A DNA stretch of 64,000 nt from Pseudomonas hydrolytica. Its GTDB lineage: Bacteria; Pseudomonadota; Gammaproteobacteria; Pseudomonadales; Pseudomonadaceae. Position numbers and translations under genes: made by a program. The stretch is taken from positions 2,852,001 through 2,916,000 of the forward strand of contig NZ_CP099397.1 in NCBI RefSeq assembly GCF_021495345.1. Reading direction: 5' to 3'. This document shows positions 37,314-51,968 of this stretch, one piece after another; position 1 is the first letter of the stretch, and each line of letters starts with the position of its first letter. The notes under the pieces were generated by a model. It searched no databases, was not told where the DNA came from, and was given only the letters and a program-made list of their open reading frames with translations.

Positions 37314-38012
37314 GTGGGCAGCATTTACCTGATTCGACATGGCCAGGCTTCATTCGGTGCAGACGACTACGATGTCCTGTCTCCCGTCGGTGTGCGCCAG
37401 GCCGAAGTACTGGGCGAGCACCTCAGCCAGCTCGGCATCGTCTTCGACCGCTGCGTCAGCGGCAGCCTGCGCCGACAGCAGCATACCGCCAATGCCGCAC
37501 TGCAGCGCATGAACGACGCCCCGGCGCTGGATATCGACGAAGCCTTCAACGAGTTCGATGCCGACGCGGTGATCCGCACCCTGCTCCCCGATCTGCTGCC
37601 GGAAGAACCCGAAGCCCTGCACATCCTGCGTAACGGCGCGCAGAACCGCGCCGAATTCCAGCGCCTGTTCGCCAAGCTGATCCAGCGCTGGGTCTCCGGC
37701 GAACACGACAAACCCGGGCTGCAGAGCTGGCAGGCCTATGTCGAGCAGGTCGAGGGCGGCCTGCGGCGCATTCTCGAACAGGCCCAGAGCAAACAGAACA
37801 TCGCCGTATTCACCTCCGGCGGCACCATCACCGCCCTGCTGCGCCTAGTCACCGGCGTACCGGCGCACAAAGCTTTCGAACTGAATTGGCAAATCGTCAA
37901 CACCTCGCTCAGCCAGCTGAAGTTTCGTGGCAACGAGGTGAGTCTGGCTTCCTTCAACAGCCATGTGCATTTACAGCTGCTGAAGGCGCCGGAGCTCATT
38001 ACCTACCGGTGA
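37314..38012 (+). CDS. Histidine phosphatase family protein
   Basis: 232 residues, GTG start. The RHG catalytic motif (IYLIRHGQASFG, His9) opens the protein, and the second catalytic His region is reduced to VFTSGGTITALL, where phosphoglycerate-mutase-like enzymes usually have a His (VxHGG). That replaced His makes activity uncertain. It is followed 58 bases later by the SCP2 gene on the same strand, a pairing seen in other pseudomonads. Confidence 0.85.
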   Translation: MGSIYLIRHGQASFGADDYDVLSPVGVRQAEVLGEHLSQLGIVFDRCVSGSLRRQQHTANAALQRMNDAPALDIDEAFNEFDADAVIRTLLPDLLPEEPEALHILRNGAQNRAEFQRLFAKLIQRWVSGEHDKPGLQSWQAYVEQVEGGLRRILEQAQSKQNIAVFTSGGTITALLRLVTGVPAHKAFELNWQIVNTSLSQLKFRGNEVSLASFNSHVHLQLLKAPELITYR

Positions 38013-38070
38013 GTTCCGGCCCACTGCGGCCGCGAGGCTGCGCGAAAAACCTGAAAAGAAGGATAAGACC

Positions 38071-38382
38071 ATGAGCGTTGCTGACATCGTCCAAACCATG
38101 CAATCCAAGTTCAACGCCAGCGCCGCTGCCGGCCTGGATCTGGTATTCCAGTTCAACATCGAAGACGGCGAGAACTACGCCCTGATCGTCAAGGACGGCA
38201 CCTGCGCCGTCGAGCAAGGCGACAACCCGAACGCCAACGTGACCCTGATCATGGACAGCGAAACCCTCAAGGGCATCACCAGCGGTGAAACCGATGGCAT
38301 GCAGGCCTTCATGGCCGGCAAGCTGCGCGCCGAAGGCGACATGATGCTGGCGATGAAACTGGGCGAGCTGTTCCCGGTTTAA
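38071..38382 (+). CDS. SCP2 sterol-binding-domain protein
   Basis: 103 residues comprising a single SCP2 fold: FNASAAAGLDLVFQFNIEDGENYALIVKDG, then PNANVTLIMDSETLKGITSGETDGMQAFMAGKL-type sequence in short blocks. Such proteins bind hydrophobic ligands such as acyl chains. RBS AGAAGGA precedes the ATG. A strong terminator follows. Confidence 0.92.
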   Translation: MSVADIVQTMQSKFNASAAAGLDLVFQFNIEDGENYALIVKDGTCAVEQGDNPNANVTLIMDSETLKGITSGETDGMQAFMAGKLRAEGDMMLAMKLGELFPV

Positions 38383-38408
38383 GCCGTCTGGCTGACCTGA
38401 TGCAGACG

Positions 38409-38439
38409 AAAACCGGAGTCCCTGGACTCCGGTTTTTTT
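38409..38439 (+). terminator. Rho-independent terminator after the SCP2 gene
   Basis: AAAACCGGAGTCC pairs with GGACTCCGGTTTT and is followed by more T residues (TTTTTTT in total). Classic strong terminator, also separating this operon from the convergent Fil-like operon. Confidence 0.93.
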
Positions 38440-38473
38440 ATGGGCGCCTCGAAGTATCTGGCCTGCGCCGATC

Positions 38474-39625
38474 TCAGCGCACTATGGCGAGTTCGAAAGC
38501 GCCCTCGTCGGCGTGGGCATGGCGCTGCATGCCTGTCTCATCCAGCGCCAGCGGTTGCAGCGGCCGCTTGAAGGGCTTGTTGTCGAGCGTCTGCAGGCTG
38601 CGATCCTGATCAGTGGTAATCAGCAGCACGTAGCGCTCGCCACGCTCGGCGCGGACCTGCACCGTGCCTTCGATGAAGGCGTAGCGGTACCAGGTTTCCG
38701 GATGCAGTTGGTACACCGCGTCACTGACCAGGCGGGTCGGCCGCTTGGCCTCGTCGAGAAACAGCAGCGACGGGTAGACCACCTGGCGATTGGCGAAACT
38801 GCGCACGCGCAGGCCGTAGCTCTGCCGCGAGGCGGGCAGTCTCAGCGCCGCGTAGTAGCTGCGCCCCATGGGGAAATCGAAGCTGGGGGAAAAGCGATCC
38901 AGCTCCTCGAAGCGCGGCTCGTCGGCCGACAGGGGCTTGAAATCGCTGTCGCGCAGCTGGCCGCAGCAGCGCGCCACCAGCTCGCCGTAGAGCCCCTCCT
39001 CCCGCACTTCGCTACCGGCGAGCAGCGCCTGCATGGCAGCCGTCGGCTGGCCATCGAGCATCGGCAACGAAGGCTTGCTGCGCTCGAATTCGATCTGCCG
39101 GCCTTCGCTGAAGCGCACCGGTGCAGCGGTCTGGCTGGAATCGGGCGCGCGTTGCCGGGTCGGCACCGGCGAGTTGTGCATCCGCCCCTGCTCGTCGACC
39201 CAGGTGTAATAGGGGCTTTCGTAGCTGTCGCGGGCAAAGCCGCGCCCCTCCAGCACGGCCGAGTCGATGTACTCCCCTGCCCGCTCTCCGCTGGCCAGTA
39301 CCTGATCGCGACCCGACGCACCGGCGACCTGGGCGCCGGCATAGAAACTGTTGTGCAGTTGGCCATTGCCATCGACCCAGGTGAAATAGCGGCGCTTGCT
39401 CTCCCCCGTGCCTGGCGCACTGCCCGGCCAGGCACCGCCGTCACCGAGCCGCGCCTGGTCGCTCTGTTCGGCGCGGCGCCTGGCCTGGCTCTGCTGCTCG
39501 GCGAAACGGCCGTCGACGAAGGTGTTGTGCACCCGCCCAAGGTCATCGACCCAGGTCAGGTAGCGGCTGCCGGCCGTGGCCGGCATCAGGGGCAGCAAGG
39601 CCAGGATGAAGATCAGACTGCGCAT
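38474..39625 (-). CDS. FilE-like periplasmic protein: three WVD repeats plus MalM-like domain
   Basis: 383 residues with a signal peptide (cleavage near ATA-GSR). Three copies of a short module follow: YLTWVDDLGRVHNTF (about 22), YFTWVDGNGQLHNSF (about 80) and YYTWVDEQGRMHNSP (about 140), a DUF4124-like pattern. The C-terminal half (about 225-360) resembles the maltose-operon protein MalM (FPMGRSYYAALRLPAS, VRSFANRQVVYPSLLFLDE). It is the last gene of the five-gene operon, 4 bases behind the FadL-like gene. Annotated relatives elsewhere are called 'pilus assembly protein FilE', but no function is proven. Confidence 0.75.
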   Translation of the reverse strand: MRSLIFILALLPLMPATAGSRYLTWVDDLGRVHNTFVDGRFAEQQSQARRRAEQSDQARLGDGGAWPGSAPGTGESKRRYFTWVDGNGQLHNSFYAGAQVAGASGRDQVLASGERAGEYIDSAVLEGRGFARDSYESPYYTWVDEQGRMHNSPVPTRQRAPDSSQTAAPVRFSEGRQIEFERSKPSLPMLDGQPTAAMQALLAGSEVREEGLYGELVARCCGQLRDSDFKPLSADEPRFEELDRFSPSFDFPMGRSYYAALRLPASRQSYGLRVRSFANRQVVYPSLLFLDEAKRPTRLVSDAVYQLHPETWYRYAFIEGTVQVRAERGERYVLLITTDQDRSLQTLDNKPFKRPLQPLALDETGMQRHAHADEGAFELAIVR

Positions 39626-39629
39626 CGCC

Positions 39630-41219
39630 TCAGAACCTCGAGGTATAGGTCATGGCGAAGATATAGGCCTTGACCGTGGTTTCGATATTGAGCCCGGCAT
39701 AGGGGTTGTAGACTAGGTTGTCCAGGCCTTCGCAGCTGACGTTGCAGCTGCTGCCCGCGGGAATGCTCTGCCTGGAAACGAAGTAGTTGAAGCCGACGTC
39801 GATGGTGGTGTCCTTGTCCCAGCGATAGCCCAGACCGAGCCCGTAGAGATCGGCATCGCCCACCGGCGCCAGCACGTCCGCCCGGTTCTTCGGGATGGCC
39901 GAGGGGCGATATTCGTAGCCGGCGCGCAGGGCCAGGCGATCATTGACGTCGTATTGCGCACCGACGCCCCAGCTCCAGGTATCGCGGTAGCGACGGTCGA
40001 GAATGAGGCTGCGATCGGTGGCCTTGCCACCGCCGAAGGTCTTGGCGATGCGCAGCAGATCCAGCTCGCGATCGAACTCGATCTCGAAGCTGTTCCAGTC
40101 GCTGTAGCCGACCCAGCGCAGGTCCAGGTTGAACTGCCACTTGTCGAACGGGCGCAGCTTGATGCCGGTGCTGAAGGCGTCCGGATAGGTCAGTTTGAGC
40201 GAGGCGTTGCCGCTCTCCTCGTCCGCGCCGTAGGGAAACAGCGGGCTGAGGATCTGACCGAACAGCGAGCCCTGCAGGCCGGACCAGAAGCCTGCCCAGT
40301 CCTCGCTGTAGTCGACGCGGTACTTGCCCTGCAGGTTCATGCGCGCCTCGCTCTGGTAGGTCGCTCCCCAGGCGAACCAGTCGCTGGGCTCCCAGAGAAT
40401 GCCCAGGTTGTAGGTTGGCGACAGGCTCTGCTGCAGATCCAGATCGAGGTTGGCCAACGAGTCGAAGGGGCCGATCTTGCCATTGCAGACGTTGATGAAT
40501 GGCCCGGTGATCTCTTCCAGCCCCGGCAGGCACAGCGCCTCGTTGAGGATTCGGGTCAGACCGGTGAGCATGCCGGGGTTGCGAAAGTCCTGGTTGAGCG
40601 CCACGGCCTGATGCGAGAAGCCGATGGACAGCCCCAGCGACAGCTCGTCATTGACCTGATAGGCCAGCGATGGCGAGAAGTAGGTGATGCGCTGCAACGA
40701 CACCTGACGCCCCTGGAAACGCCCGGGATCGCTGTCCGAATCGCGCGAGTAGCCCAAGGCCATGGGCGCGTAGACGTTGGTGGCGAAGGTGAATTTCGAA
40801 CCGGGCGGGTTGATCGACAGCCCGGCCAGCGGCGCCACCAGCACCGGCAGCTCGGTCATGCCGCCGACACCCGGCAGGTACATGGTCGGAGTCAGGGTAC
40901 GGCTGCTGGAATGCTTGAACGGGTCATCGTCGTAACCCATGAAGCCGTAATCCTCCTTGGCGTCGAACTTGGCGCGGATGTCCATCACCCCGCTGAGCAG
41001 CTTGACCGTGGTCTGCCGCCCCTTGAGCTTGCTCAGCGCCGCGGGGTTGTAGTGCACCGCATCGATACCGGTGACATCGGCGGTAACGGCGTTGCCCATG
41101 GCCATGGCCTTGGGGTTGCCGATGGTCAGGTTGTTGGCCAGTTGCGCCTGGGCAGGCAGGACGCAGGCCGCGCCCAACCCCACCAGCAGCAGAGCCTGCA
41201 GCTTGGCTAGATGAGTCAT
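39630..41219 (-). CDS. FadL/OmpP1-family outer-membrane transport protein
   Basis: 529 residues, signal peptide ending near PAQAQLANN. The FadL hatch-type start (NPKAMAMGNAVTADVTGIDAVHYNPAALSKLKG) and the C-terminal aromatic residue of a beta barrel (MTYTSRF) are clear. FadL homologues pass hydrophobic molecules such as fatty acids or hydrocarbons; in this operon it may be the exit or entry channel for a partner product. Two Cys residues (CNVSCEG) near the C-terminus may form a loop disulfide. 18 bases separate it from the upstream gene. Confidence 0.85.
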   Translation of the reverse strand: MTHLAKLQALLLVGLGAACVLPAQAQLANNLTIGNPKAMAMGNAVTADVTGIDAVHYNPAALSKLKGRQTTVKLLSGVMDIRAKFDAKEDYGFMGYDDDPFKHSSSRTLTPTMYLPGVGGMTELPVLVAPLAGLSINPPGSKFTFATNVYAPMALGYSRDSDSDPGRFQGRQVSLQRITYFSPSLAYQVNDELSLGLSIGFSHQAVALNQDFRNPGMLTGLTRILNEALCLPGLEEITGPFINVCNGKIGPFDSLANLDLDLQQSLSPTYNLGILWEPSDWFAWGATYQSEARMNLQGKYRVDYSEDWAGFWSGLQGSLFGQILSPLFPYGADEESGNASLKLTYPDAFSTGIKLRPFDKWQFNLDLRWVGYSDWNSFEIEFDRELDLLRIAKTFGGGKATDRSLILDRRYRDTWSWGVGAQYDVNDRLALRAGYEYRPSAIPKNRADVLAPVGDADLYGLGLGYRWDKDTTIDVGFNYFVSRQSIPAGSSCNVSCEGLDNLVYNPYAGLNIETTVKAYIFAMTYTSRF

Positions 41220-41237
41220 ATCAGGTTCGCTCGCTGC

Positions 41238-42239
41238 TTACTCGGCCTTGAGACCCTTGATATCCAGGGGCATGGAGATGCCGAGCAGGACGTCGGGCGA
41301 ATCCTCGGTCATGCCGAAACCGGCATTGACGTTGACGATATTGTTCGGCGAGGTGCGCAGGCCGAGGGAGAAGTTCATCACCGCACTGGTCTGCTCCTTG
41401 CCCTCCAGGGTGGCGTCGCTGAACTTGAACTTCGGCGCCAGGTTGTGCGCCATCTGCAGGGAAGTGGCCAGCGACACGTCATAGGACAGCGCATAGGCGA
41501 AGCCCATGCTCAGCGACAGGCTCGAGCCCGGCTCGACCTCTTCCAGCAGGCGTCCGCCGCGCACCTGATCGGCATCGCGAATCGGCAGGTTGTAGGTGTA
41601 TCCAAGCGAGCCGAACAGCACCACCGGATCGATCACGTAGGACAGGTTGGCGCCGACACCCAGGCTGTAATAGCCGTTACCGGTGGCCAGACCGTTGTCC
41701 AGGCTGACGTCGTACGGGCTGTCCCCGGTGGGCAGGCCGAGCGTGGCGAACAGCGTGGTGACCGGGCGCCCGCGCGCCGACGACCAGGGCTGCCAGCGAA
41801 AACTGGCGGAAATGTCGCCGAGGCTGTAGCTGCTCAGGTCGCGTTCGGTGTCGTACTTGGCCAGGAACGGCACGCGCATGCTGAAGGTTAGGTTGTCCCA
41901 CACCCCGTAGTCGAAGGTGAAGGAATTGGTGAAGGTATGCTGCGCCTCGCTCTGGCCGATCACGCTGAATACGTTCTGCCCGGTGCGCACGGTCTGGATC
42001 TGCGTATCGCGCAGCAGCGCGTAGTCGAACCCGTAGGTCAGGGTGCGTTCACCCTTCTTGAGCAGGGTGTAACTCTTCTCCGCGGCCTGGAACACCTCTT
42101 CCAGCGCCTTGGCGCTGTCGGCGTCGTCGTCCTTCTTGGTCAGCGCCTCACGTGCATCGTCGACCGTAGCCTCGTCGGCAAGTGCCGGCTGCATCATCAG
42201 CGCCAGCGCGGCCAGCCATGCGTATCCCCAAACTCCCAT
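41238..42239 (-). CDS. FilC-like outer-membrane/transporter protein
   Basis: 333 residues, signal peptide ending near PALA-DEA. A helical, charged segment (about 25-60, DAREALTKKDDDADSAKALEE-type) precedes a body of alternating amphipathic strands (TLTYGFDYALLRD, FTFDYGVWDNLTFSMRVPFLAKYD, DISASFRWQPW) typical of a small beta barrel. It resembles proteins annotated as putative pilus-system transporter FilC. It sits between the peptidase and the FadL-like gene, same strand, short gaps. Confidence 0.65.
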   Translation of the reverse strand: MGVWGYAWLAALALMMQPALADEATVDDAREALTKKDDDADSAKALEEVFQAAEKSYTLLKKGERTLTYGFDYALLRDTQIQTVRTGQNVFSVIGQSEAQHTFTNSFTFDYGVWDNLTFSMRVPFLAKYDTERDLSSYSLGDISASFRWQPWSSARGRPVTTLFATLGLPTGDSPYDVSLDNGLATGNGYYSLGVGANLSYVIDPVVLFGSLGYTYNLPIRDADQVRGGRLLEEVEPGSSLSLSMGFAYALSYDVSLATSLQMAHNLAPKFKFSDATLEGKEQTSAVMNFSLGLRTSPNNIVNVNAGFGMTEDSPDVLLGISMPLDIKGLKAE

Positions 42240-42277
42240 GACGCTATCCCCAGGTCGTTATTGTTATGCCGGGTGAA

Positions 42278-43039
42278 TCATTTGCGGCGAATGTATTGAA
42301 TGTCGCCACCCGACCCCAACTGGTCGGCCTGATTGCTGGTGAACTTGGCCATCTGCGGGAACTCGCGAAAGGCCAGCAGACTGATGGTGCGGTCATCGAT
42401 GATGCGCAGGTCGCGGTCGGTGAGCGCCAGGGCATTGGGTGGCTCGTTGCCGCTGGGAAAGATCACGAACAGAACGTTCTGATCCCAGATCTGTTCGAAA
42501 CGCACGCGGGTGAAACTGATGTTGCCCAACGCCGGATCGGCGACGAAGACGTGGTCGTTGTAGACATCGCGCACCACCACGAAATGTTTGAAGCCGGCGT
42601 ACTCGATCGGCACGATGGCCGGGTGTTCGAGCTGGGCGAGATCATCGAACCCGGCGCGAAAGCCCCCGCTCTGATACCCCAGCGCGGTGACGAAGCGCTT
42701 CATGTCGAGCAGCGAGAACCCGCGGCGCTCGATGATCTTCTCGGCCTCGCCGAAATGCAGCAGCCCTTCCATCACCTGGCGCTCTTGCAGATTGCGCCCG
42801 AGGTAGTAATCCAGCAGCATGGTCAACGCCGCGGAGCCGCAGCTGTAGTCGTAGGCCTGGCGGATGACGTTGCGAAACTGCAACTGGCTCATCGGCTCGA
42901 CCATCACCGATTCGCGCAGCGGGCCATTGGGCAGCAGCGGCTGGGTGATGTTCACGACACCGGCGGGCTGCGGTTTGATGTCGACAGCCTCGGTGAAACC
43001 GTACAAACCGATCAGGCTGCCCACGAGAATTTCGATCAT
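42278..43039 (-). CDS. C39-type cysteine peptidase without ABC transporter (FilB/FapD-like)
   Basis: 253 residues with an N-terminal hydrophobic segment that may be a signal or anchor. The catalytic triad of a C39 peptidase is visible: Cys in QAYDYSCGSAALTMLL (about residue 68), His in GFKHFVVVRD and Asp in FVADPALGN. C39 domains normally cleave double-glycine leaders as part of ABC exporters, but here the domain stands alone, as in FapD of the Pseudomonas amyloid system. It follows the small secreted-protein gene by 84 bases. Substrate unknown. Confidence 0.85.
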   Translation of the reverse strand: MIEILVGSLIGLYGFTEAVDIKPQPAGVVNITQPLLPNGPLRESVMVEPMSQLQFRNVIRQAYDYSCGSAALTMLLDYYLGRNLQERQVMEGLLHFGEAEKIIERRGFSLLDMKRFVTALGYQSGGFRAGFDDLAQLEHPAIVPIEYAGFKHFVVVRDVYNDHVFVADPALGNISFTRVRFEQIWDQNVLFVIFPSGNEPPNALALTDRDLRIIDDRTISLLAFREFPQMAKFTSNQADQLGSGGDIQYIRRK

Positions 43040-43123
43040 TGGTCAATCCGCAACTGCGTACAACGGAGCAGGAGCCCGGCCGCAGCCGGCGGCAAGGCTC
43101 CTGTGGATCAGGTCAGGCGAGGA

Positions 43124-43546
43124 TCAATGACCCCAGACCTTGACGGTGGAGCCGGCCATGTCCAGACCGTTGATGGCCACGCCACCGATGCTGTTGGCGC
43201 CGATCTTCACCGAGTCGACCGAGACGCCACCGTTGATGCCCGGCAGGCCGATTTCCAGCTTGTTGTCCACCACGTCGATGGTCAGCGGGTTGCTTTCGCT
43301 GATGTTGAAGCCGGTCAGCTTGACGGTGTTCAGGCTCAGGCTGTTGCTGCCGTCGTCGACGCCGGTTGCGGTATCGGTGTAGACGATGGAACCGATGGTG
43401 GCATCGAAGTTACCGGCGATGCTGATACCGGCCTGACCGGTCACATCGGCCAGGGCTGCGTCGTCGAGGGACTGCATCTGTGCCTGAGCCATAAACGGAA
43501 CGGCCATGACGGCGGCGGCGAGAGCGATTTTCTTCAGGGTCATCAT
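43124..43546 (-). CDS. Small secreted Asp/Gly/Ser-rich protein (FilA-like, DUF6160-type)
   Basis: 140 residues from the ATG at 43546 (GGAG nine bases upstream). Signal peptide (KKIALAAAVMAVPFMAQA) is followed by MQSLDDAALADVTGQAGISI, a signature of small secreted proteins that precede barrel/peptidase operons. The body is Val/Ile/Gly/Ser-rich with alternating hydrophobic residues (SLSLNTVKLTGFNISE) that could form a beta structure. First gene of the five-gene operon and likely its secreted product. Confidence 0.75.
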   Translation of the reverse strand: MMTLKKIALAAAVMAVPFMAQAQMQSLDDAALADVTGQAGISIAGNFDATIGSIVYTDTATGVDDGSNSLSLNTVKLTGFNISESNPLTIDVVDNKLEIGLPGINGGVSVDSVKIGANSIGGVAINGLDMAGSTVKVWGH

Positions 43547-43786
43547 TGTTGTTATCTCCACAGTTCGAATGGGGGTTCCCCGGGCTCTGCCGGTGACGTC
43601 CTGTCACGAGCAGCCTGATCGGCTCATGCCGACCACCAGACCTGTCACGGCTTCCCTAGTTGCGCCAGGTTTGGATTCGCGAAACGCGCTGCGCTTCGAG
43701 ATGGCTACAAGCTACTGACCCGCTATCGCACTGCCAGCCCATCCAAGGGATGGAGCATGGCATCTCCCCCTCTACCCCGGTCTTTC

Positions 43787-46510
43787 TCAGGCCTCGCTCA
43801 AAAGGCCGAGACTCTTGCCCTTGAGCACGGCCTGAGTCCGGCTGCGCACGCCCAGCTTGGAAAACAGGTTGTGCAGGTGCCACTTGATGGTGGCTTCCGA
43901 CAAATGCACCGTCTGGGCAATGTCGCGGTTCGACAGCCCCGCCGCCACGAGCCGCAGGATCTCTCTTTCGCGATGGCTAACATCCTGATTTTCCTCGAAA
44001 CTTTCAGGATCTATGGCCATCCGGCGGCACTGCTCGCGGAGCAGTTCGGCCAGCCCCTGCCAGGCCGCCGCGCGCTTGGGCTCGGCGCTGCACCAGGCGT
44101 CCCAGAGCGGCAGCAGCCACAAGGCATCGTCCTGGAACAGACGGCGATAGCCGCACTGCCAGGCCTCTTCGAGGGTGGCACGCAGCAGGGCGAAGGCCTT
44201 TTCGCTGTTACCTTTGCGCCAGTACGCCACAGAAAGTAACAGGCTCAGACGCAGGCGCCGGTCGCGCTGGTGCTCGGCGCCCTGCTTGGCCAGGCAGGCT
44301 TCCAGGCTGGCCTGGGCCCTGTCCACGCGCCGCTCGCTCAAGGCCAGACGCGCCTGACTCAGCGCCAGTGCGGTATGGGCATCGCCATAGCGTTCGATGG
44401 GCAGCGTGGCGAGATGACGCTCCAGTTGCAAATAGATGCGCTGGGCCTCGTTGGGCCGGCGCAGCCACAGCAGGAACTGCACCTTGCAGCCCATGCCGAT
44501 GGCGAACACGCGTTCGTAGCCGGGCCCCTGCAGCCCGGCCAGCCACTCGTCGAGCTCTTCCAGCCCCTGCTCCGCCGCGCCGGCAAAGAAGCGCGCGCGT
44601 GCCATCACCAGCTTGCCGCGACTGATCAGCTCCACCGGGGTGGCGACGTCGCGCCAGGTGGTGGCCAGCGGCAGCTCGGCGAGTATCGCGCCATGGCGAT
44701 CCTGCTCGTAGAGCAGGTCGGCATAGGCCAGGCCCAGCGGGCCGCCGACCCGGCTGCGTCGTCCGAACACCTGCTCCACCCGCGCCCGTGCGGCCTCGGC
44801 CAGGGCGCGTCCGCGCTCCAGTTCGCCGTATTCCTTGCAGATCAGCGCCTCGATCAGGCTGGCCATCACATGCAGGTACTCGCTCTCGCACTGGCGCAGG
44901 TTTTCCCGCGCCACGGCAATGGCCTTGGCCGCTTCGCCAAACTCGCCGAGCAGGGCGAAGGCCGCAGCCTGCACGCAGGCCAGGCTGGCGCGAAAGACCG
45001 GCTGGTTCTGCGGCACCAGGGCCAGCCAGTGACCGGCGACCTTGAGGCAGGCTTCCAGCTTGTCCTGATACAAGAGCACCAGGGCCTTGAGCACCTGGGC
45101 GGCGGCCAGCAGCTCGATCAGACCGAAGTGCATGCCCTTGCCGCGCCCCTGGGTCAGGCGCGTGCTGACCTCCTCGATCAGCGCCTCGGATTCGGCGAAC
45201 TTCTGCTCGAAGGCCAGCTGCCAGGCATAGAAGATCTGGAACACCGGCTGCTCGGCGATCACCACCGGCGGTATGTCCTTGAGGATGGCGAGAATGCCGT
45301 ACACCCGGTTGCCGGCGATCAGGCGCGCGCCCTGACGCTCCAGTAGCTCGGCGGCAAAGCCATAGTCGCGTGCTCGCAGGGCATACTTGATCGACTTGTC
45401 GGCGAGATCGCGCGCCTCGCACCAGCGCGCGGCTGCGTGCAGCAGATGCGCCGGGTCGCCGCGCTTGGCCAGCCGCCCCTGGAGAAACTCGGCGAACAGA
45501 TGGTGATAACGAAACCACTCGCCCTGCTCGTCCAGCGGAATGACGAACAGCTGCTCGCTCTGCAGCCGGCGCAGCATGTCACGGCCATCGCGGCGGCCGG
45601 TCAGTGCATTGCACAGTTCGGCGTTGAATTCATCGAGCACCGAGGTCTGATCGAGGAACAGCTGCTGCGCCTCGGGCAGACTGGCCACCACATCCTCGGC
45701 GAGGTAATCGGCGATATTGCGCTCGGCGCCGGACAGCCCGGCGAGAAAGGCGGCACGGTCACGCTGCCGCGGCAGCGCCAGCGCCGCCAGATGCAGCGCG
45801 GTGATCCAGCCCTCGGTACGGGCATGCAGCTGATCGAGCTCAGCCTCATCGAGCGCCAGCTGCTTGATGGTGCGCAGGTAGGCGGCGGTTTCCCCGCGAG
45901 ACAGGCGCAGATCCTCGGCCCTTAGCCAGAACGCCCAGCCGCCGAGCGACGGCGGCTCATCGAGAAACCGCGGCTGATAGCGGGTGCTGACCACCAGACG
46001 CACATGCCTGGGCAGGCGCTCGATCAGGTAGCGGGCGCCCTGGCCGAGGGAGGGATGACGGATGCGGTGAAAGTCGTCCAGCATCAGATAAAGCTCGCCA
46101 GGCAGCGCCTTGAGGTCATCGAGGAAGGCGTCGATCACCGCCTCCAGCGGCCAGCTGATCTCACCCTGCAGCAGCGCCGAGGCGCTACTGCCGAAGCCCG
46201 GACAAGCCGACTCGATGGCCGCCACCAGGTACTGCAGGAATCTCGCCGGTTCGCTGTCGGCCTCGTCGCATGACAACCAGGCGACGCGCGCGCCCTGCTC
46301 CTGCAGGCGGCGGCGCAACTGGCTGAGGACGGTGCTCTTGCCGAAGCCGGCCGGCGCGCTGAGGACGATCAGACGCTGCTCGCGCGCGGCCAGCAGTCGC
46401 TCGAGCAATGCCGAACGCTCCAGCAGAGGCGCTCCCTCTCCATGGGCCGGATAGAGTTTGGTGCGCAGCAGGGGCACCGTGGACTGACGAGGCTGGTTCT
46501 GGCTGGTCAT
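43787..46510 (-). CDS. MalT-type LuxR-family ATP-dependent regulator (second of tandem pair)
   Basis: 907 residues. N-terminal STAND NTPase with Walker A SAPAGFGKST (about 54-63) and Walker B-like LYLMLDDFHRI, a long TPR-like helical region, and a C-terminal LuxR HTH (HREREILRLVAAGLSNRD then HLSEATIKWHLHNLF). MalT and AlkS belong to this class: they bind an inducer and ATP, then activate nearby operons. Its start overlaps the stop of the upstream paralogue by 4 bases, and its 3' end is 240 bases from the Fil-like operon. Confidence 0.9.
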   Translation of the reverse strand: MTSQNQPRQSTVPLLRTKLYPAHGEGAPLLERSALLERLLAAREQRLIVLSAPAGFGKSTVLSQLRRRLQEQGARVAWLSCDEADSEPARFLQYLVAAIESACPGFGSSASALLQGEISWPLEAVIDAFLDDLKALPGELYLMLDDFHRIRHPSLGQGARYLIERLPRHVRLVVSTRYQPRFLDEPPSLGGWAFWLRAEDLRLSRGETAAYLRTIKQLALDEAELDQLHARTEGWITALHLAALALPRQRDRAAFLAGLSGAERNIADYLAEDVVASLPEAQQLFLDQTSVLDEFNAELCNALTGRRDGRDMLRRLQSEQLFVIPLDEQGEWFRYHHLFAEFLQGRLAKRGDPAHLLHAAARWCEARDLADKSIKYALRARDYGFAAELLERQGARLIAGNRVYGILAILKDIPPVVIAEQPVFQIFYAWQLAFEQKFAESEALIEEVSTRLTQGRGKGMHFGLIELLAAAQVLKALVLLYQDKLEACLKVAGHWLALVPQNQPVFRASLACVQAAAFALLGEFGEAAKAIAVARENLRQCESEYLHVMASLIEALICKEYGELERGRALAEAARARVEQVFGRRSRVGGPLGLAYADLLYEQDRHGAILAELPLATTWRDVATPVELISRGKLVMARARFFAGAAEQGLEELDEWLAGLQGPGYERVFAIGMGCKVQFLLWLRRPNEAQRIYLQLERHLATLPIERYGDAHTALALSQARLALSERRVDRAQASLEACLAKQGAEHQRDRRLRLSLLLSVAYWRKGNSEKAFALLRATLEEAWQCGYRRLFQDDALWLLPLWDAWCSAEPKRAAAWQGLAELLREQCRRMAIDPESFEENQDVSHREREILRLVAAGLSNRDIAQTVHLSEATIKWHLHNLFSKLGVRSRTQAVLKGKSLGLLSEA

Positions 46511-49221
46511 GATTCGAGTAGGCTCAGTTCGCGGGCACGGCGGATGGCTTGAGTGCGATTACGCACCTTGAGCTTTTCGTAGATGTTGTGCAGGTGCCAT
46601 TTGACGGTGCCCAGGGCCAGCGACAGCTGCTGGCCGATCTCTTCGTTGGATAGGCCCTTGGCCGCCAGGCAGACCACCTCGCGCTCGCGCTCGGTCAGGC
46701 CCTCCTCCAGCACGTCCAGTGCCTGGCGCAACTCCTGCCCCGGCCAGATCACCAGCAGGCTGCGCAGAAAGCCCTGCAGCGCCGGCTGGCGCTCGGCCGA
46801 TTCGAGTTGCTGCAGCAGTTGGCGAATGGCTTCGCCTTCCTCGATGAACAGGCTGCGCGCTTCTTCCCGCTCGGCGCCGATCAGGCATTGCACCAGCAGG
46901 CTCTGTGCGCGCTCCTGATAACCCAGGCGCTGATAACTGAGCGCGGCCAGCAGATCCAGGCGCAGACGGTGCAGACCGTGCCAGTCGTTCTGCAACTGGC
47001 TGCGCAGCTGGGTGATCTCGTGCAGCGCTTCGCTGTAATGGCCGCGCGCCTGCTGCAGGCGGATGCGGGTCAGGCCCAGCACCCAGAGCACGGGGTTGAA
47101 CTTGCGCTGCTTGTAGTGCGCAGCCAGCTTGGCCCAGTCCACCGACTTCAGGCGCTGCTCGGCCCGCCGGCTGCGGTCGGCCGCCGGCTCCTGCAGGATC
47201 AGGGCGATTTCCTCGCCGACCGCCTGCGCGTAGAAGCGCCAGGAGTGGTTGCGCGCCGCCAGGTTCTGCATCAGCACCAGGGTCGCGGCCGCCTCCTTGG
47301 GCGCATCGTGCAGGCGCTGCACCCGCGCCAGGCAGAGCATGGCCTGCGCATAGAGATCGATGGGGTTGATCACGTCGACCGCGGCCAGGGCCCAGCGCAA
47401 CCGCTCCGGCAAGCCGTCCAGGCGCCCCTGGTGGTAGGCGATCAGCGCGTCGCTGATGGCCGGCAGCACCAGGGCCCGGGACTGCTCGCCGAACCAGGGC
47501 ATCATCCGCGTGCGCAACTGCTCGAAGAGCAACTGCGCCTGCTTGATCCGCCCCTGTTCCAGGCACAGGAGGATCTCCACGTTGGCCAGCTGCATGTCCA
47601 GGTAACGGCCTTCGAGGAAGTGGTTGCGCTGCTGCGCCAGCGCCAGCAGCTTGCGCGCCTGCTCGGCCTGGCCGAGCATGACGTGGGCCAGGGCGCCGAC
47701 GGTGAGGATCGCCACCTCGAGAAACGCGGTGTGCTGGCCGAGCTGCGCCTCGATGCGCCGCGCCAGGCTCACGCAGGTATCCAGGTCGTCCTTCTGCATG
47801 GCGATCACCGCCTTGACCGCCAGGGCGGCGAACATCTGCTCGCTCAGCGGCCCGCTGTCGCCGCCCTGCCCCCAGCGCTGCAGCAACTCGTCGAGCAGAC
47901 GGTTGGCCTCGGCCAGGCCCAGCTCGGCCGCGCGGCTCCAGACATCCACCAGCACCAGCATCGGATAGCGCTCGGCAATGGCGTCGGGCACGTGCTGGCG
48001 CCAGCTGTGGATCAGGTGCAACTGGCCACGGTTGATCAGCTCCAGGCCGCAGCCGTCGAGCAGCGCGGCGAGCATCTCGGCATCCTCGGCCAGGCAGGCG
48101 TGCTCGATGGCCAGGTTCTGCATGTGGTGGTTGGTGAACCACAGGCTGGCATTGAAATGCAGCTGCTTGAAGCGCTCCGGGTCACGCTCCCGGAGGCGGG
48201 TGCGCAGGAACTCGGCGAACAGGTTATGGAAGCGATACCACTGCCGCTCGCGGTCCAGCGGCAGGAGAAACAGCTGCATGGCCTCCAGCTCCTCCAGCAA
48301 CTGCTGGCCATCGTGGCGGCCGGTCAGCGCGTTGGCCAGATCGCCGCTGAGCTGCTGCGCCACGCCCAACGCCAGCAGCAGCTCCTGACGCTCCTGCGGC
48401 AACTGCTCGAACACCGAACGCAGCAGGTAATCGCCCACCGCGCCCTGGTCCGCGCCCATCTCGGCCATCTGCTGCACCGGCTGGGGCTGATGGCGCAGCC
48501 ACAGGCTGGCCAGGTGCATGCCGATCATCCAGCCCTCGGTATGGCTGTACAGCGCGGCGAAGGCCTCGCCATCGAGCTGCAGGCCGCTGCGTTCAAGGTA
48601 GCTGCGCGCCTCCTCCGGGTTGAGCCGCAGCTCCTCGCTGCCGAGCTCCAGCAACTGGCCCTTGGCGCGCAGCGTGGCCAGGCTCAGCGGCGGTTGCGAA
48701 CGACTGCCGATGGCCAGGGTGAAGTTCGGCGGCGCCAGCTTGACCAGGCGGTTGAGCGCGGCGAGCAGTTCCGCGTCCTGGATCAGGTGCAGATCGTCGA
48801 GCACCAGCAGCAGCGGCTCCTGGCGCTGCGCCAGGTCGACCAGCAGGCTCTCCATGACGGCCTCGACCGGCACCCGCATGGTGTTGCGCAGATAGCCCAG
48901 GGCATCCTCGCCCAGGCCGGGCAGCGCGCGGCCGAGGGCGTCTATGAGCTGCTGGAAGAAGCGCACCGGCTCGTCGTCGCCGGGGCCGAGCGACAGCCAG
49001 GCGACGGCGGCGCCGGCATGGCGGCGTTCGCTGGCGAGCATCGCCAGGGCAGTGGTCTTGCCAAAGCCCGCCGGGGCGGAAAACAGCACGAGACGGGCAT
49101 GCGGATGGGCTAAAAGCGCAGCTTCGACCTGGGGCCTTGCCAGATAGTCCGAAGCGGCCTGGGGTGGCGAGAGTTTCGAACGTAGCAGGCTTCCAGCGGC
49201 TGGATCGATAACTTCATCCAT
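46507..49221 (-). CDS. MalT-type LuxR-family ATP-dependent regulator (first of tandem pair)
   Basis: 904 residues from the ATG at 49221; an upstream TTG at 49266 is less likely. Walker A SAPAGFGKTT, Walker B-like LLLVLDDLHLIQD, helical sensor region and C-terminal LuxR HTH (LTEREREVVCLAAKGLSNEE, then LALGTVKWHLHNIYEKL). It is a clear paralogue of the next gene and co-transcribed with it (ATGA overlap). From memory, P. aeruginosa has two such regulators next to pabB (PA1758-PA1760), so the pair appears conserved. Inducer unknown. Confidence 0.9.
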   Translation of the reverse strand: MDEVIDPAAGSLLRSKLSPPQAASDYLARPQVEAALLAHPHARLVLFSAPAGFGKTTALAMLASERRHAGAAVAWLSLGPGDDEPVRFFQQLIDALGRALPGLGEDALGYLRNTMRVPVEAVMESLLVDLAQRQEPLLLVLDDLHLIQDAELLAALNRLVKLAPPNFTLAIGSRSQPPLSLATLRAKGQLLELGSEELRLNPEEARSYLERSGLQLDGEAFAALYSHTEGWMIGMHLASLWLRHQPQPVQQMAEMGADQGAVGDYLLRSVFEQLPQERQELLLALGVAQQLSGDLANALTGRHDGQQLLEELEAMQLFLLPLDRERQWYRFHNLFAEFLRTRLRERDPERFKQLHFNASLWFTNHHMQNLAIEHACLAEDAEMLAALLDGCGLELINRGQLHLIHSWRQHVPDAIAERYPMLVLVDVWSRAAELGLAEANRLLDELLQRWGQGGDSGPLSEQMFAALAVKAVIAMQKDDLDTCVSLARRIEAQLGQHTAFLEVAILTVGALAHVMLGQAEQARKLLALAQQRNHFLEGRYLDMQLANVEILLCLEQGRIKQAQLLFEQLRTRMMPWFGEQSRALVLPAISDALIAYHQGRLDGLPERLRWALAAVDVINPIDLYAQAMLCLARVQRLHDAPKEAAATLVLMQNLAARNHSWRFYAQAVGEEIALILQEPAADRSRRAEQRLKSVDWAKLAAHYKQRKFNPVLWVLGLTRIRLQQARGHYSEALHEITQLRSQLQNDWHGLHRLRLDLLAALSYQRLGYQERAQSLLVQCLIGAEREEARSLFIEEGEAIRQLLQQLESAERQPALQGFLRSLLVIWPGQELRQALDVLEEGLTEREREVVCLAAKGLSNEEIGQQLSLALGTVKWHLHNIYEKLKVRNRTQAIRRARELSLLES

Positions 49222-49387
49222 GGCCTGGATCCCTTCATTAATTATTGTTTTGGTGATGGTGCGCAATGTTACGGCTGGGCCTCATACTAATCAGCTCCGG
49301 GCATCCGGGCAAACCCTCGCGCAAGCTCTAGGATGAATGTTAGCGGCAGACTACAATCGCTTCCCCCAGCCCCTTCGACTGCCACGC

Positions 49388-50737
49388 ATGCCTAGCTGCT
49401 CCCTGCATCCTCTGCCCTACCGGGCCGACCCCGCCGAGTACTTCCAGCGTATCCGCCAGGCGCCCGGCGCCGTCCTGCTGGATGCCGGGCGGCCGGGTGC
49501 CGAGCGTGGACGCTATGACCTTATGAGCGCCTGGCCATTGGCAGAGCTGGCACCGAGTGCCGACGAATCGGCCAACGATTTCCTGCAACGCCTGCGCGGC
49601 GCCTTGCAGAGCCTCGGCCATGCCGACGCGCCGGACGGTCATGAACTACCGTTCGTCGGCGGGCTCATCGGCTATCTGGCCTACGACTTCGGCCGCCGCC
49701 TGGAAAGCCTGCCCGGCCACAGCCGCGACGACCTCGGCCTCGAGGATGCGCGCTTCGGCCTGTACGGCTGGGCGCTGGTCAGCGACCACCTGCTCGGCAG
49801 CAGCGCCCTGCTGTTCCATCCGGCCCTGCCACGGGCCGAGCGCGAGCGCCTGCTGGCGCTGTTCGAGGCGCCCCATGACGAGAAACCCGCGCGCTTTCGC
49901 CTGACCCAGGCCTTCCGGGCCGATCTGGATCAGGCCGGCTACCGCCGGGCCATCGAGCGCATCCAGGCCTACATCCTGGCCGGCGACTGCTACCAGGTGA
50001 ACTTCGCCCAGCGCTTCCAGGCGCCCTGCGCGGGCGATCCCTGGGCCGCCTACCTGGCATTGCGCCAGGCCTGCCCGACGCCCTTCTCCGGCTTCCAGGC
50101 CCTGGCCGACGGCGGCGCGATCCTCAGCCTGTCGCCCGAGCGTTTCATCAAGGTCAGCGCGGGCCAGGTGGAAACCCGGCCGATCAAGGGCACCCGCCCG
50201 CGCGGCCGCGATGCGCTGGACGACCAGGCGCAGGCGCAGGCGCTGCTGGGCAGCGGCAAGGATCGCGCGGAAAACCTGATGATCGTCGACCTGCTGCGCA
50301 ACGACCTCGGCCGCAGCTGCCGCACCGGCTCGGTGCGGGTGCCGGAGCTGTTCGCCCTGGAGAGCTACCCCAACGTGCACCACCTGGTCAGTTGCGTCAC
50401 CGCCGAGCTGGCCCCCGGCAAGGACGCGCTCGACCTGCTCGCTGGCAGCTTCCCTGGCGGTTCGATCACCGGCGCGCCGAAGATCCGCGCGATGCAGATC
50501 ATCGACGAGCTGGAACCGACGCGGCGCGGCCTCTACTGCGGCTCGCTGCTGTATCTGGACGTGCGCGGCGAGCTGGACAGCTCCATCGCCATCCGCAGCC
50601 TGCTGGTCAAGGATGGCCAGGTCAGTTGCTGGGGCGGCGGCGGCATCGTCGCCGACTCCAGCTGGCAGGCCGAGTATCAGGAGTCGATCACCAAGGTCAA
50701 GGTGCTGCTCGACACCCTGGAACGCCTGGGCCGCTGA
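49388..50737 (+). CDS. pabB: Aminodeoxychorismate synthase component I
   Basis: 449 residues from the ATG at 49388; the 17 codons upstream are not family sequence. The chorismate-binding domain shows YQVNFAQRF, ETRPIKGTRPRGRD, ENLMIVDLLRNDLG and PGGSITGAPKIRAMQIIDEL with the end GGIVADS. It converts chorismate to 4-amino-4-deoxychorismate for folate synthesis, with ammonia from PabA. Transcribed divergently from the regulator pair 166 bases away. Confidence 0.95.
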   Translation: MPSCSLHPLPYRADPAEYFQRIRQAPGAVLLDAGRPGAERGRYDLMSAWPLAELAPSADESANDFLQRLRGALQSLGHADAPDGHELPFVGGLIGYLAYDFGRRLESLPGHSRDDLGLEDARFGLYGWALVSDHLLGSSALLFHPALPRAERERLLALFEAPHDEKPARFRLTQAFRADLDQAGYRRAIERIQAYILAGDCYQVNFAQRFQAPCAGDPWAAYLALRQACPTPFSGFQALADGGAILSLSPERFIKVSAGQVETRPIKGTRPRGRDALDDQAQAQALLGSGKDRAENLMIVDLLRNDLGRSCRTGSVRVPELFALESYPNVHHLVSCVTAELAPGKDALDLLAGSFPGGSITGAPKIRAMQIIDELEPTRRGLYCGSLLYLDVRGELDSSIAIRSLLVKDGQVSCWGGGGIVADSSWQAEYQESITKVKVLLDTLERLGR

Positions 50738-50742
50738 GCCCC

Positions 50743-50808
50743 GTGGGAGCGAGCGTCGCGAGCGAAGCTTTTGCGGCACCGATATTCGCGAGCAGAGCTC
50801 GCTCCTAC
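50743..50808. repeat. REP-type inverted repeat
   Basis: GTGGGAGCGAGC at 50743 pairs with GCTCGCTCCTAC ending at 50808, the familiar Pseudomonas REP core, between the convergent pabB and alkB-like genes. The last 4 bases overlap the alkB-like stop codon. Confidence 0.85.
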
Positions 50809-51968
50809 AGACTCCGCTGCAGCGCGGCGATGCCGCTGCGCGCGTTGGCCTGGGCGGCCAGCTCGCGCTCCTCCGCCGTGGCGTAGTCGCGGTCCCAGGC
50901 CAGCACCTTGGGCGTCATCAGGCGGTGCCACAGCGGCGGGATCATCGCCACGATGATGGTGGTCAGGTAGCCGCCGATCATCATCGGCGCCTCGGCGAAG
51001 GGTTGCAGGTCCTGGTAGGGCACTTCGCCCTGGGCGTGGTGGTGGGAGTGGCGGGTCAGGTTGAACATGGTCCAGGAGCTGATGCGCCGGTTGCTGTTCC
51101 ACGAGTGGCGCGGCTGCACCGGCGTGGCCGGGTTGCGCACCATGCCGTAGTGCTCCATGTAGTTGACGATCTCCAGCAAGGCCTTGCCCCACAGCGCGCA
51201 GGCGACGAAGAACAGCGCCGCCACCACCCCGCCCATGGCCCAGGCGGCCAGCACCAGCAGCGCGCTCATCAGGTGGCCGCGCAGCAGCGCGTTGCGCCAG
51301 CCGAACAGGGCATGGCCCTTGCGCTGCAGGCGCTTCTTCTCGATCTGCCAGGCGCTGAGGTTGCCCTTGAGGGTGGAGGCGAGGATATGGAAGTAGACGT
51401 TGCGCCCGCGCGGCGCGGTGGCCGGGTCCTCGCGGGTGGAAACGTAGCGGTGGTGGCCGTAGACGTGCTCGATGGCGAAGCTGGTGTCGAAGCTGAAGGC
51501 CAGCAGCCAGCGGCCGATCAGCATGGACACCGGGTCCCAGGTGCGGTGGGTCAGCTCGTGGGCGGTGATGGTGCCGATCATGCCGATCATCAGGCCGGTG
51601 AGGATCACCGCCGCGACGTGGTGGCCGAAGGCGGTCGCCTCGCGCGCGGCGAGCACGTCGTAGCCGCTCAGCGCGCTGGCCCAGGCGCCGAAGCCCAAGG
51701 GGTCGCCGCCGCTCACCGTCCATACCGCGGTGAACACGATCAACGCCAGCAGCGGCAGGGCCAGCCACAGTTGCACGGTGAGAATCCACGGATGCTTGAA
51801 GCGCGGGGTCGAGGTGTCGTCGCCGCAGACGGCATCGCCCAGCAGGTAGATCGCCAGCACCGTCAGCAGGCCGCCGGTGGTGTAGGCGCCGCCGGCGAGC
51901 AGCGCCAGCACGGCGAACAGGCCGATGGCATGGAACAGGAAGTACTTCAGGTAATGCAGGATATTCAT
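50805..51968 (-). CDS. alkB: AlkB/XylM-type membrane di-iron hydroxylase
   Basis: 387 residues with six hydrophobic segments. All histidine boxes are present: HELTH (137-141), EHVYGHH (167-173), NYMEHYG (269-275) and RHSHHH (306-311). The C-terminal sequence PPLWHRLMTPKVLAWDRDY and ERELAAQAN is close to XylM of toluene/xylene monooxygenase, so alkyl-aromatic methyl groups are possible substrates besides alkanes. It is followed upstream by its reductase gene and faces a divergent AraC regulator. Substrate not certain. Confidence 0.88.
   Translation of the reverse strand: MNILHYLKYFLFHAIGLFAVLALLAGGAYTTGGLLTVLAIYLLGDAVCGDDTSTPRFKHPWILTVQLWLALPLLALIVFTAVWTVSGGDPLGFGAWASALSGYDVLAAREATAFGHHVAAVILTGLMIGMIGTITAHELTHRTWDPVSMLIGRWLLAFSFDTSFAIEHVYGHHRYVSTREDPATAPRGRNVYFHILASTLKGNLSAWQIEKKRLQRKGHALFGWRNALLRGHLMSALLVLAAWAMGGVVAALFFVACALWGKALLEIVNYMEHYGMVRNPATPVQPRHSWNSNRRISSWTMFNLTRHSHHHAQGEVPYQDLQPFAEAPMMIGGYLTTIIVAMIPPLWHRLMTPKVLAWDRDYATAEERELAAQANARSGIAALQRSL

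Follow-up and report, generated by a model that had tools for sequence, protein, structure and literature searches.

The Fil genes, known in Acinetobacter as a "putative pilus system" (NCBIfam NF050077-NF050080), have a counterpart in Pseudomonas hydrolytica (assembly GCF_021495345.1, contig NZ_CP099397.1), located at positions 38474..49221 of the window, i.e., of the whole 64,000-nt stretch analysed here (2,852,001 to 2,916,000 of the contig). The operon probably encodes a two-step export system, in which client proteins would cross the inner membrane by Sec, have a second N-terminal leader cut by the peptidase FilB in the periplasm, and be released through the outer-membrane barrel FilC.

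Pellicles of Acinetobacter baumannii show elevated FilF (PMC3203104), and mucin increases filA in the same species (PMC5757984); FilF, an uncharacterised putative pilus assembly protein, has been tried as a vaccine antigen (PMC4751259). The published observations fit a surface role of Fil and do not show a pilus. No pilin, usher, or pilus ATPase (chaperone-usher or type IV) is found among the seven genes of the P. hydrolytica locus, and with no pilus families present the label is without support here.

Several described systems combine a C39 peptidase with an export route. In Fap, the active-site Cys of FapD is required for secretion; the target of this peptidase was called unclear, the Fap proteins were described as lacking a canonical C39 sequence, and FapF was named as another protein that might be cut (PMC5557850). 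A 2018 review likewise considered the FapD substrate undetermined and recorded fapD together with fapF in five more phyla (PMC6173800). The PCAT/AMS exporters (LahT, PCAT1, ComA) possess a related peptidase and the same leader rule as Fil, namely hydrophobic residues at −12, −7, and −4 and G at −2, with known cuts after GG, GA, or GS, and one enzyme serving many precursors (PMC10885120). Their peptidase is part of an ABC transporter and works on the cytosolic side (PMC5557850), whereas Fil contains no ABC part and its leader follows a Sec signal. In the nap island of Neisseria gonorrhoeae (NapP, NapF, NapA-C), a C39 peptidase, a FapF-related channel, and GG-motif peptides occur together as in Fil; unlike the Fil proteins, the nap peptides are small and cationic (< 10 kDa), and the cited account of them makes no mention of a signal peptide ahead of the leader (PMC11798529).

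All seven genes announced for this DNA by an earlier reading of its letters (hereafter, the original prediction) are present on the minus strand. The best NCBIfam models of four of them are, in gene order, FilA, FilB, FilC, and FilD, in keeping with the Fil label that the original prediction quoted for related gene sets, and all four scores are below the curated cut-offs (45/220, 289/475, 319/630, and 524/970 bits). The filA-B-C-D order is shared with Acinetobacter, where L244, L248, and L249 keep the FilB-C-D order. The locus is a Fil operon, consisting of FilA, FilB, FilC, FilD, and a DUF4124/MalM protein. FilA, the proposed substrate (43124..43546), is a DUF6160 secreted protein (PF19657, 5e-25; FilA model, 7e-12) of 140 aa, compared with 279 positions in the FilA model. 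FilB (42278..43039), the proposed leader peptidase, is a stand-alone C39 enzyme (Peptidase_C39, 1e-20), and FilC (41238..42239), the proposed channel, is a FapF-like outer-membrane barrel which matches FapF crystal chains at 1.5e-12 and also the Pfam family Phenol_MetA_deg. FilD (39630..41219) is an outer-membrane barrel of the FadL type (Toluene_X/FadL, 4e-109). The periplasmic protein in the FilE position (38474..39625; MalM, 2e-26; DUF4124, 1e-9) contains one DUF4124-type segment by Pfam and three by eye; despite its position, it is not matched by the FilE model. There is no FilF next to the operon, the search for it being confined to this neighbourhood. The proteins named nearest to the locus products, among the matches listed, belong to Ectopseudomonas mendocina and E. 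guguanensis.

The kinship with Fap claimed by the original prediction is supported: the NCBIfam models of FapD and FapF match FilB at 118 bits and FilC at 63 bits, respectively. At the same time, membership in Fap was rejected for the window genes, given that these scores compare with cut-offs of 330 and 700 bits, which are exceeded by genuine FapD and FapF from the host's genus, and that FapB/C are missing among them. No match to FapA/B/C was found among the five genes, to which the search for FapB/FapC was limited. In the host genome (5.29 Mb), one FilB and one FilC were found, two other FilB matches lying at E > 0.1; with no second C39 match below E 0.1, there was no sign of FapD. Fil differs from Fap in that its proposed substrates are dispersed over the genome and genes for FadL and MalM proteins are added.

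The conservation of the gene set was followed in 80 named loci, selected by FilB as the best 80 of at least 570 confirmed ones, from Pseudomonas, Marinobacter, Alcanivorax, Thalassolituus, Bermanella, Hahella, Kistimonas, Acinetobacter, and others. FilB, FilC, and FilD are encoded on one strand in 80/80 of them, so chance is excluded. The MalM gene is found in 72/80, a FilA homologue within the locus in 43/80, and all five genes on one strand in 37/80; to this extent the co-occurrence foreseen by the original prediction was observed, its regulator part being treated below. FilC was likewise present in 43/43 further FilB loci.

The proposed leader is illustrated by FilA. Its N-terminus consists of the signal peptide MMTLKKIALAAAVMAVPFMAQA (residues 1-22, 43481..43546; recognised by eye, ending in AQA at an inferred cleavage point), then QMQSLDDAALADVTGQ (residues 23-38, 43433..43480), and then AGISI. 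The stretch LDDAALADVTGQ, standing directly after the signal peptide, matches a double-glycine leader except for Q at −1. With the predicted cut after Q38, L falls on −12, L on −7, V on −4, G on −2, and Q on −1. Only 1/121 signal-peptide-like open reading frames (ORFs) of the window, namely FilA, has this pattern, and it is present in 119/120 FilA homologues listed (126 found). Among 100 unique leader windows, collected with patterns fixing G at −2 and restricting −12, −7, and −1, T occupies −3 in 83, and −4 is V in 73, I in 10, T in 10, A in 5, and M in 2; the 98% of Q at −1 in this set is biased, the patterns having allowed two, eight, or nine residues there. Free of this bias are the loci retrieved by Pfam: 38/42 fit at −12/−7/−4/−2 (L, I, V, M, T, or A being accepted at −4) when −1 may be Q, A, G, S, or R; in 36/42 this last residue is Q. 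The four others comprise two with E at −1, one without G, and one misplaced in reading. The 38 still include L007, a weak host-genome match (E 0.2) rejected as a leader protein since its fit is due to chance and its frame is opposite another ORF. The consensus of the Fil leader would be [LM]DDxx[LM]xxVTGQ. At their other end, many FilA-type proteins close with GH or GK (e.g., VKVWGH, ITVAGK, MVVYGH).

The putative reader of this leader retains a complete active site. The catalytic residues of FilB, Q61, C67, H152, and D168, are invariant across 19 diverse FilB proteins, in keeping with the C39 triad noted in the original prediction, and the four C39 catalytic residues are common to 44 FilB and 40 FapD-like proteins. 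In the same comparison, the two groups differ consistently at several positions, some of them near the active-site Cys/His in sequence. By sequence search, FilB resembles the C39 domains of PCAT/AMS proteins (6mpz, 7.5e-5; 4ry2, 2.5e-4). Signal peptides had also been predicted: this stood for FilA and did not for FilB, where by eye only a short hydrophobic N-terminal segment, devoid of a positive start, is seen. In an AlphaFold2 model of a FilA-linker-FilB chain, the FilB core block reached a pLDDT of 76-90 and the FilA strands ~55-66. The FilC model (mean pLDDT 74.9) contains barrel strands and, at low confidence, N-terminal helices; the well-conserved stretch ahead of the first strand, LEEVFQAAEKSYTLLKKG, aligns with the region ahead of the first barrel strand in FapF-like proteins.

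FilB and the DUF6160 proteins also keep company across genomes. For these counts, FilB proper was defined by a threshold chosen after a gap in the scores was seen (class level, 211.6 bits or more vs 136.6 or less; order level, 174 bits or more vs 125.5 or less). Among 370 Gammaproteobacteria, FilB proper occurs in 6 and DUF6160 (E up to 1e-3) in the same 6, and 0/42 genomes of this set with only lower-scoring, FapD-like C39 matches contain DUF6160. Of 293 order-level genomes, 40 possess FilB proper and 41 DUF6160, the extra one (G418) being false; DUF6160 is found in 0/19 genomes of this set with only lower-scoring C39 matches, and FilC proper (184 bits or more) in the same 40 as FilB. One FilB match (G574) runs over a single TAA, which may be its normal end. 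The co-occurrence is in part due to the position of filA inside the operon in many loci. Since 37 of the 80 named loci are without a FilA homologue and the leader proteins of two further genomes, G121 and G221, are unlinked to FilB, operon linkage explains only part of it.

The leader proteins are not confined to the operon. The host genome encodes six of them at three places: FilA in the operon, a FilA paralogue of 178 aa at 4.87 Mb, and, at ~1.18 Mb, four genes in tandem; five of the six are encoded far from the fil operon, at odds with the dedicated export of one 140-residue protein assumed by the original prediction. The tandem genes (L012:6778-11768) encode unlike proteins of 336, 353, 196, and 775 aa, each with a signal peptide and a leader, ending in GQ, GA, GQ, and GR, and the sole FilB and FilC of the genome lie elsewhere. 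The mature parts behind the leader are, by eye, unlike one another. With the Pfam DUF6160 model alone, five of the six score above the cut-off, and the remaining one has E 0.04. In the host genome, a profile covering both signal peptide and leader, made from 26 sequences with the six host proteins among them, found the six at E 3e-10 or less and nothing else below 0.065.

In 16 chosen genomes (E up to 0.01), the same profile matched in 6/6 with FilB, i.e., in G472 (5 matches), G006 (7), G121 (17), G221 (21, one with an internal stop), G008 (4), and G187 (5); the profile contained rows from all of these except G472, and their matches, like those in the host, are partly by construction. G121 and G221 possess one FilB each, and all of their leader matches are on another contig than FilB or > 35 kb away; the Pfam model alone gave 13 matches in each (13 candidates scored each). 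Among 10 genomes without FilB proper, two had one match each, both false on reading. That in G418 is a signal-peptide protein, presumably of the SIMPL/DUF541 type, without the leader spacing of the family, and that in G115 (9.7e-4) spans the signal peptide only, so neither was accepted as a FilB-less leader genome. Six of the ten, from the host's genus or family (G593, G628, G496, G421, G145, G611), gave zero matches to the profile.

Similar leaders accompany the Fap peptidase. In fap loci of the host's genus (four) and family (one), 5/5 encode a leader between the C39 and barrel genes, which reads IELKDxE[ML]AxLRG[RK]YVMPG behind the signal peptide; the remaining ORFs there do not match. FapD, FapE, and FapF are all over the curated NCBIfam cut-offs in L151 and L153, the two loci tested. 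Because the gene between fapD and fapF carries the leader in 5/5 loci, FapE is predicted to be the FapD substrate, with a cut after residue 40. FapE is also the one Fap protein whose N-terminal peptides were absent, over ~70 residues, in mass spectrometry (PMC5557850). Fap would share with Fil the combination of a C39 peptidase, a FapF-type barrel, and a secreted protein with a C39-type leader after its signal peptide, the leader ending in RGR or RGK in FapE vs mostly GQ in FilA. FilB and FapD occur together in one genome (G448), where the leader next to FilB ends in GQ (L079, L118) and that of FapE in RGK (L153). FapD/FapE/FapF would represent a sister system with the leader LKDxE[ML]AxLRG[RK].

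Neighbours of other FapD-like C39 genes carry leaders such as LDDDTLDTLRGGF or VSNQELDQLRGGF. Counting with one fixed pattern, and classing as near those ORFs which share the strand of the C39 gene and lie no more than 1.5 kb from it, the leader was found in 11/109 near vs 2/452 other signal-peptide ORFs in a first set of 20 loci and in 13/111 vs 1/431 in 20 further loci. The respective p-values (5e-7 and 7e-9) are descriptive, with several loci per set coming from one genus; the pattern was written after the first set was read, and parts of the second had been scanned earlier (G133 and G359 matched). Loci with a match numbered 9/20 and 11/20 (in L266, the amyloid-like protein only), and the first figure rises to 14/20 with K at −11 or a looser scan; the fixed pattern disallowed K at −11 and hence missed the five FapE. 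Certain secreted proteins which by eye resemble amyloid repeats (L158:9147-9806, L264:9013-9711, L266:8842-9582) also fit the pattern, with ALxxVxGA; this fit may be the repeat itself. As FapB/FapC are reported to be unprocessed (PMC5557850), these three were discounted as substrates and are still within the set counts.

According to the proposed mechanism, FilA and several proteins encoded elsewhere would be exported by Sec across the inner membrane, and removal of their signal peptide would expose a second N-terminal signal, the double-glycine-type leader. FilB would bind this leader on the periplasmic side and cut after GQ; it is placed in the periplasm because a cut before Sec would take the signal peptide off. 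The mature proteins would leave through FilC and act at the cell surface, where a surface polymer is possible, with FilD and the MalM protein presumably assisting.

Several observations weigh against this interpretation. On the Fil side, Q at −1 of FilA is outside the known residues G, A, and S, and T is found at −4 in about 10/100 leaders. FilB is without a classical signal peptide, which leaves its membrane side not certain. In the FilA-FilB model, the leader appears as a short helix at a pLDDT of ~40, its docking not being usable. No FilA homologue was found in 37/80 named loci (26 labelled Marinobacter), one of which (L248) does contain a leader protein by pattern. On the Fap side, no adjacent leader protein was found in 6/20 and 9/20 FapD-like loci; the figure legend of a docking paper has FapD modifying FapC (PMC10638192). 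The FapF linker was also considered as a FapD target, the Fap proteins, as noted above, lack a canonical C39 sequence, and the FapE gap covers ~70 residues, whereas the predicted cut follows residue 40 (PMC5557850).

One more such point is that co-occurrence cannot tell FilB from FilC as the leader reader. In another explanation, the shared N-terminus is a retained targeting tag read by FilC or a chaperone and FilB cuts something else or is itself a chaperone. The co-occurrence of FilC is as exact as that of FilB; moreover, removal of a FapF targeting sequence has been suggested, its reader and cutter being left open, and C39-like domains without activity are mentioned (PMC5557850). Nevertheless, each position of the tag agrees with the C39 rule, no catalytic residue is missing from FilB, and, as stated above, secretion in Fap needs the active-site Cys of FapD, so this explanation appears unlikely.

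Less probable still is the uptake of hydrophobic compounds, with FilC and FilD importing lipids or alkanes, FilA serving as a periplasmic carrier, and the regulators sensing the substrate. It would suit the FadL type of FilD, the Phenol_MetA_deg match of FilC, the gene of the fatty-acid-desaturase family at 50805-51968, and the fact that many carriers belong to marine genera known as oil degraders; furthermore, among solved structures, the nearest relative of FapF is an importer (PMC5557850). Yet it leaves unexplained the C39 peptidase, the leader family with its unlike mature parts, and the kinship with FapD/FapF. A literature search on Fil in oil degraders showed nothing.

Finally, machinery reserved for one surface polymer of the 140-residue protein and controlled by the twin regulators, consistent as it is with the Fap kinship and with the pellicle and mucin observations in A. 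baumannii (PMC3203104, PMC5757984), is very improbable in view of the six leader proteins of the host and the 17 and 21 matches in G121 and G221, the confinement of the regulator pair to Pseudomonas-type loci, and the lack of any match of FilA to the amyloid-repeat families of Pfam/NCBIfam.

The regulators themselves, R2 (43787..46510, 907 aa) and R1 (46507..49221, 904 aa), are encoded upstream on the minus strand by genes overlapping by 4 bases, confirming the two overlapping LuxR regulators of ~905 residues predicted earlier. They are 32% identical over their length and possess, by Pfam/NCBIfam, the architecture of MalT without being MalT (307 and 364 bits vs an equivalog cut-off of 537). 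The pair precedes fil in 23/24 loci L171-L194 (22 labelled Pseudomonas, two metagenome-assembled genomes labelled Gammaproteobacteria); in the 24th, L174, which is cut by a contig end, R2 only is seen. Both regulators were found in five of the 43 further FilB loci, all of the host's genus or family, and the pair in 0/56 other named loci, none of which is labelled Pseudomonas; R2 by itself was likewise confined to fil loci of the Pseudomonas type. The pair therefore looks like a Pseudomonas addition, and the twin regulators did not hold up as a part of the system at large. That they drive the operon was an inference of the original prediction; a search of 38000-49500 gave no sigma-70 consensus site. 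In nine of the 56 loci, all labelled Marinobacter (L205, L210, L212, L213, L215, L218, L220, L231, L242), one R1-like MalT-type regulator is encoded no more than 9 kb from filB, on the other strand.

The operon is flanked downstream by a gene for an SCP2 protein on the opposite strand (38071-38382) and, beyond the regulators, by a pabB relative (49385-50737) divergent to fil. Across several genera, 45/80 named loci have a pabB relative in this divergent place, suggesting that the position is old and has been inherited vertically. Behind it lies the membrane fatty-acid-desaturase-family gene (50805-51968; PF00487, 2e-30; no NCBIfam match at 1e-10), whose product we take to be AlkB-like.

The Fil genes were known by name; a Sec signal and a C39 leader in tandem, the connection of this leader with FilB, and FapE as the Fap counterpart appear to be new, none of them having come up in searches of open-licence PubMed Central papers. 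The same searches, one of them limited to 2018 onward, gave no report of FilA/DUF6160 processing or of an identified FapD substrate. On balance, we lean slightly towards a still broader interpretation: FilB and FapD would stand for a periplasmic sorting route general to Gram-negative bacteria, in which a tandem Sec and C39 leader directs to a fixed peptidase and channel a range of surface proteins which are otherwise unrelated, encoded at scattered places, and open to additions, with the dialects VTGQ and LRG[GRK]; FapE would then be the FapD substrate. A leader common to FapE and the FilA family provides a residue-level prediction on the FapD target, called unknown in PMC5557850 and PMC6173800. 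It would also give a common role to the DUF6160 proteins and the "putative pilus" Fil genes of Acinetobacter, Marinobacter, Alcanivorax, and Pseudomonas, and the clients of the system in a genome could be listed from sequence alone. Sorting of proteins by a second signal placed behind that for Sec would be unusual.

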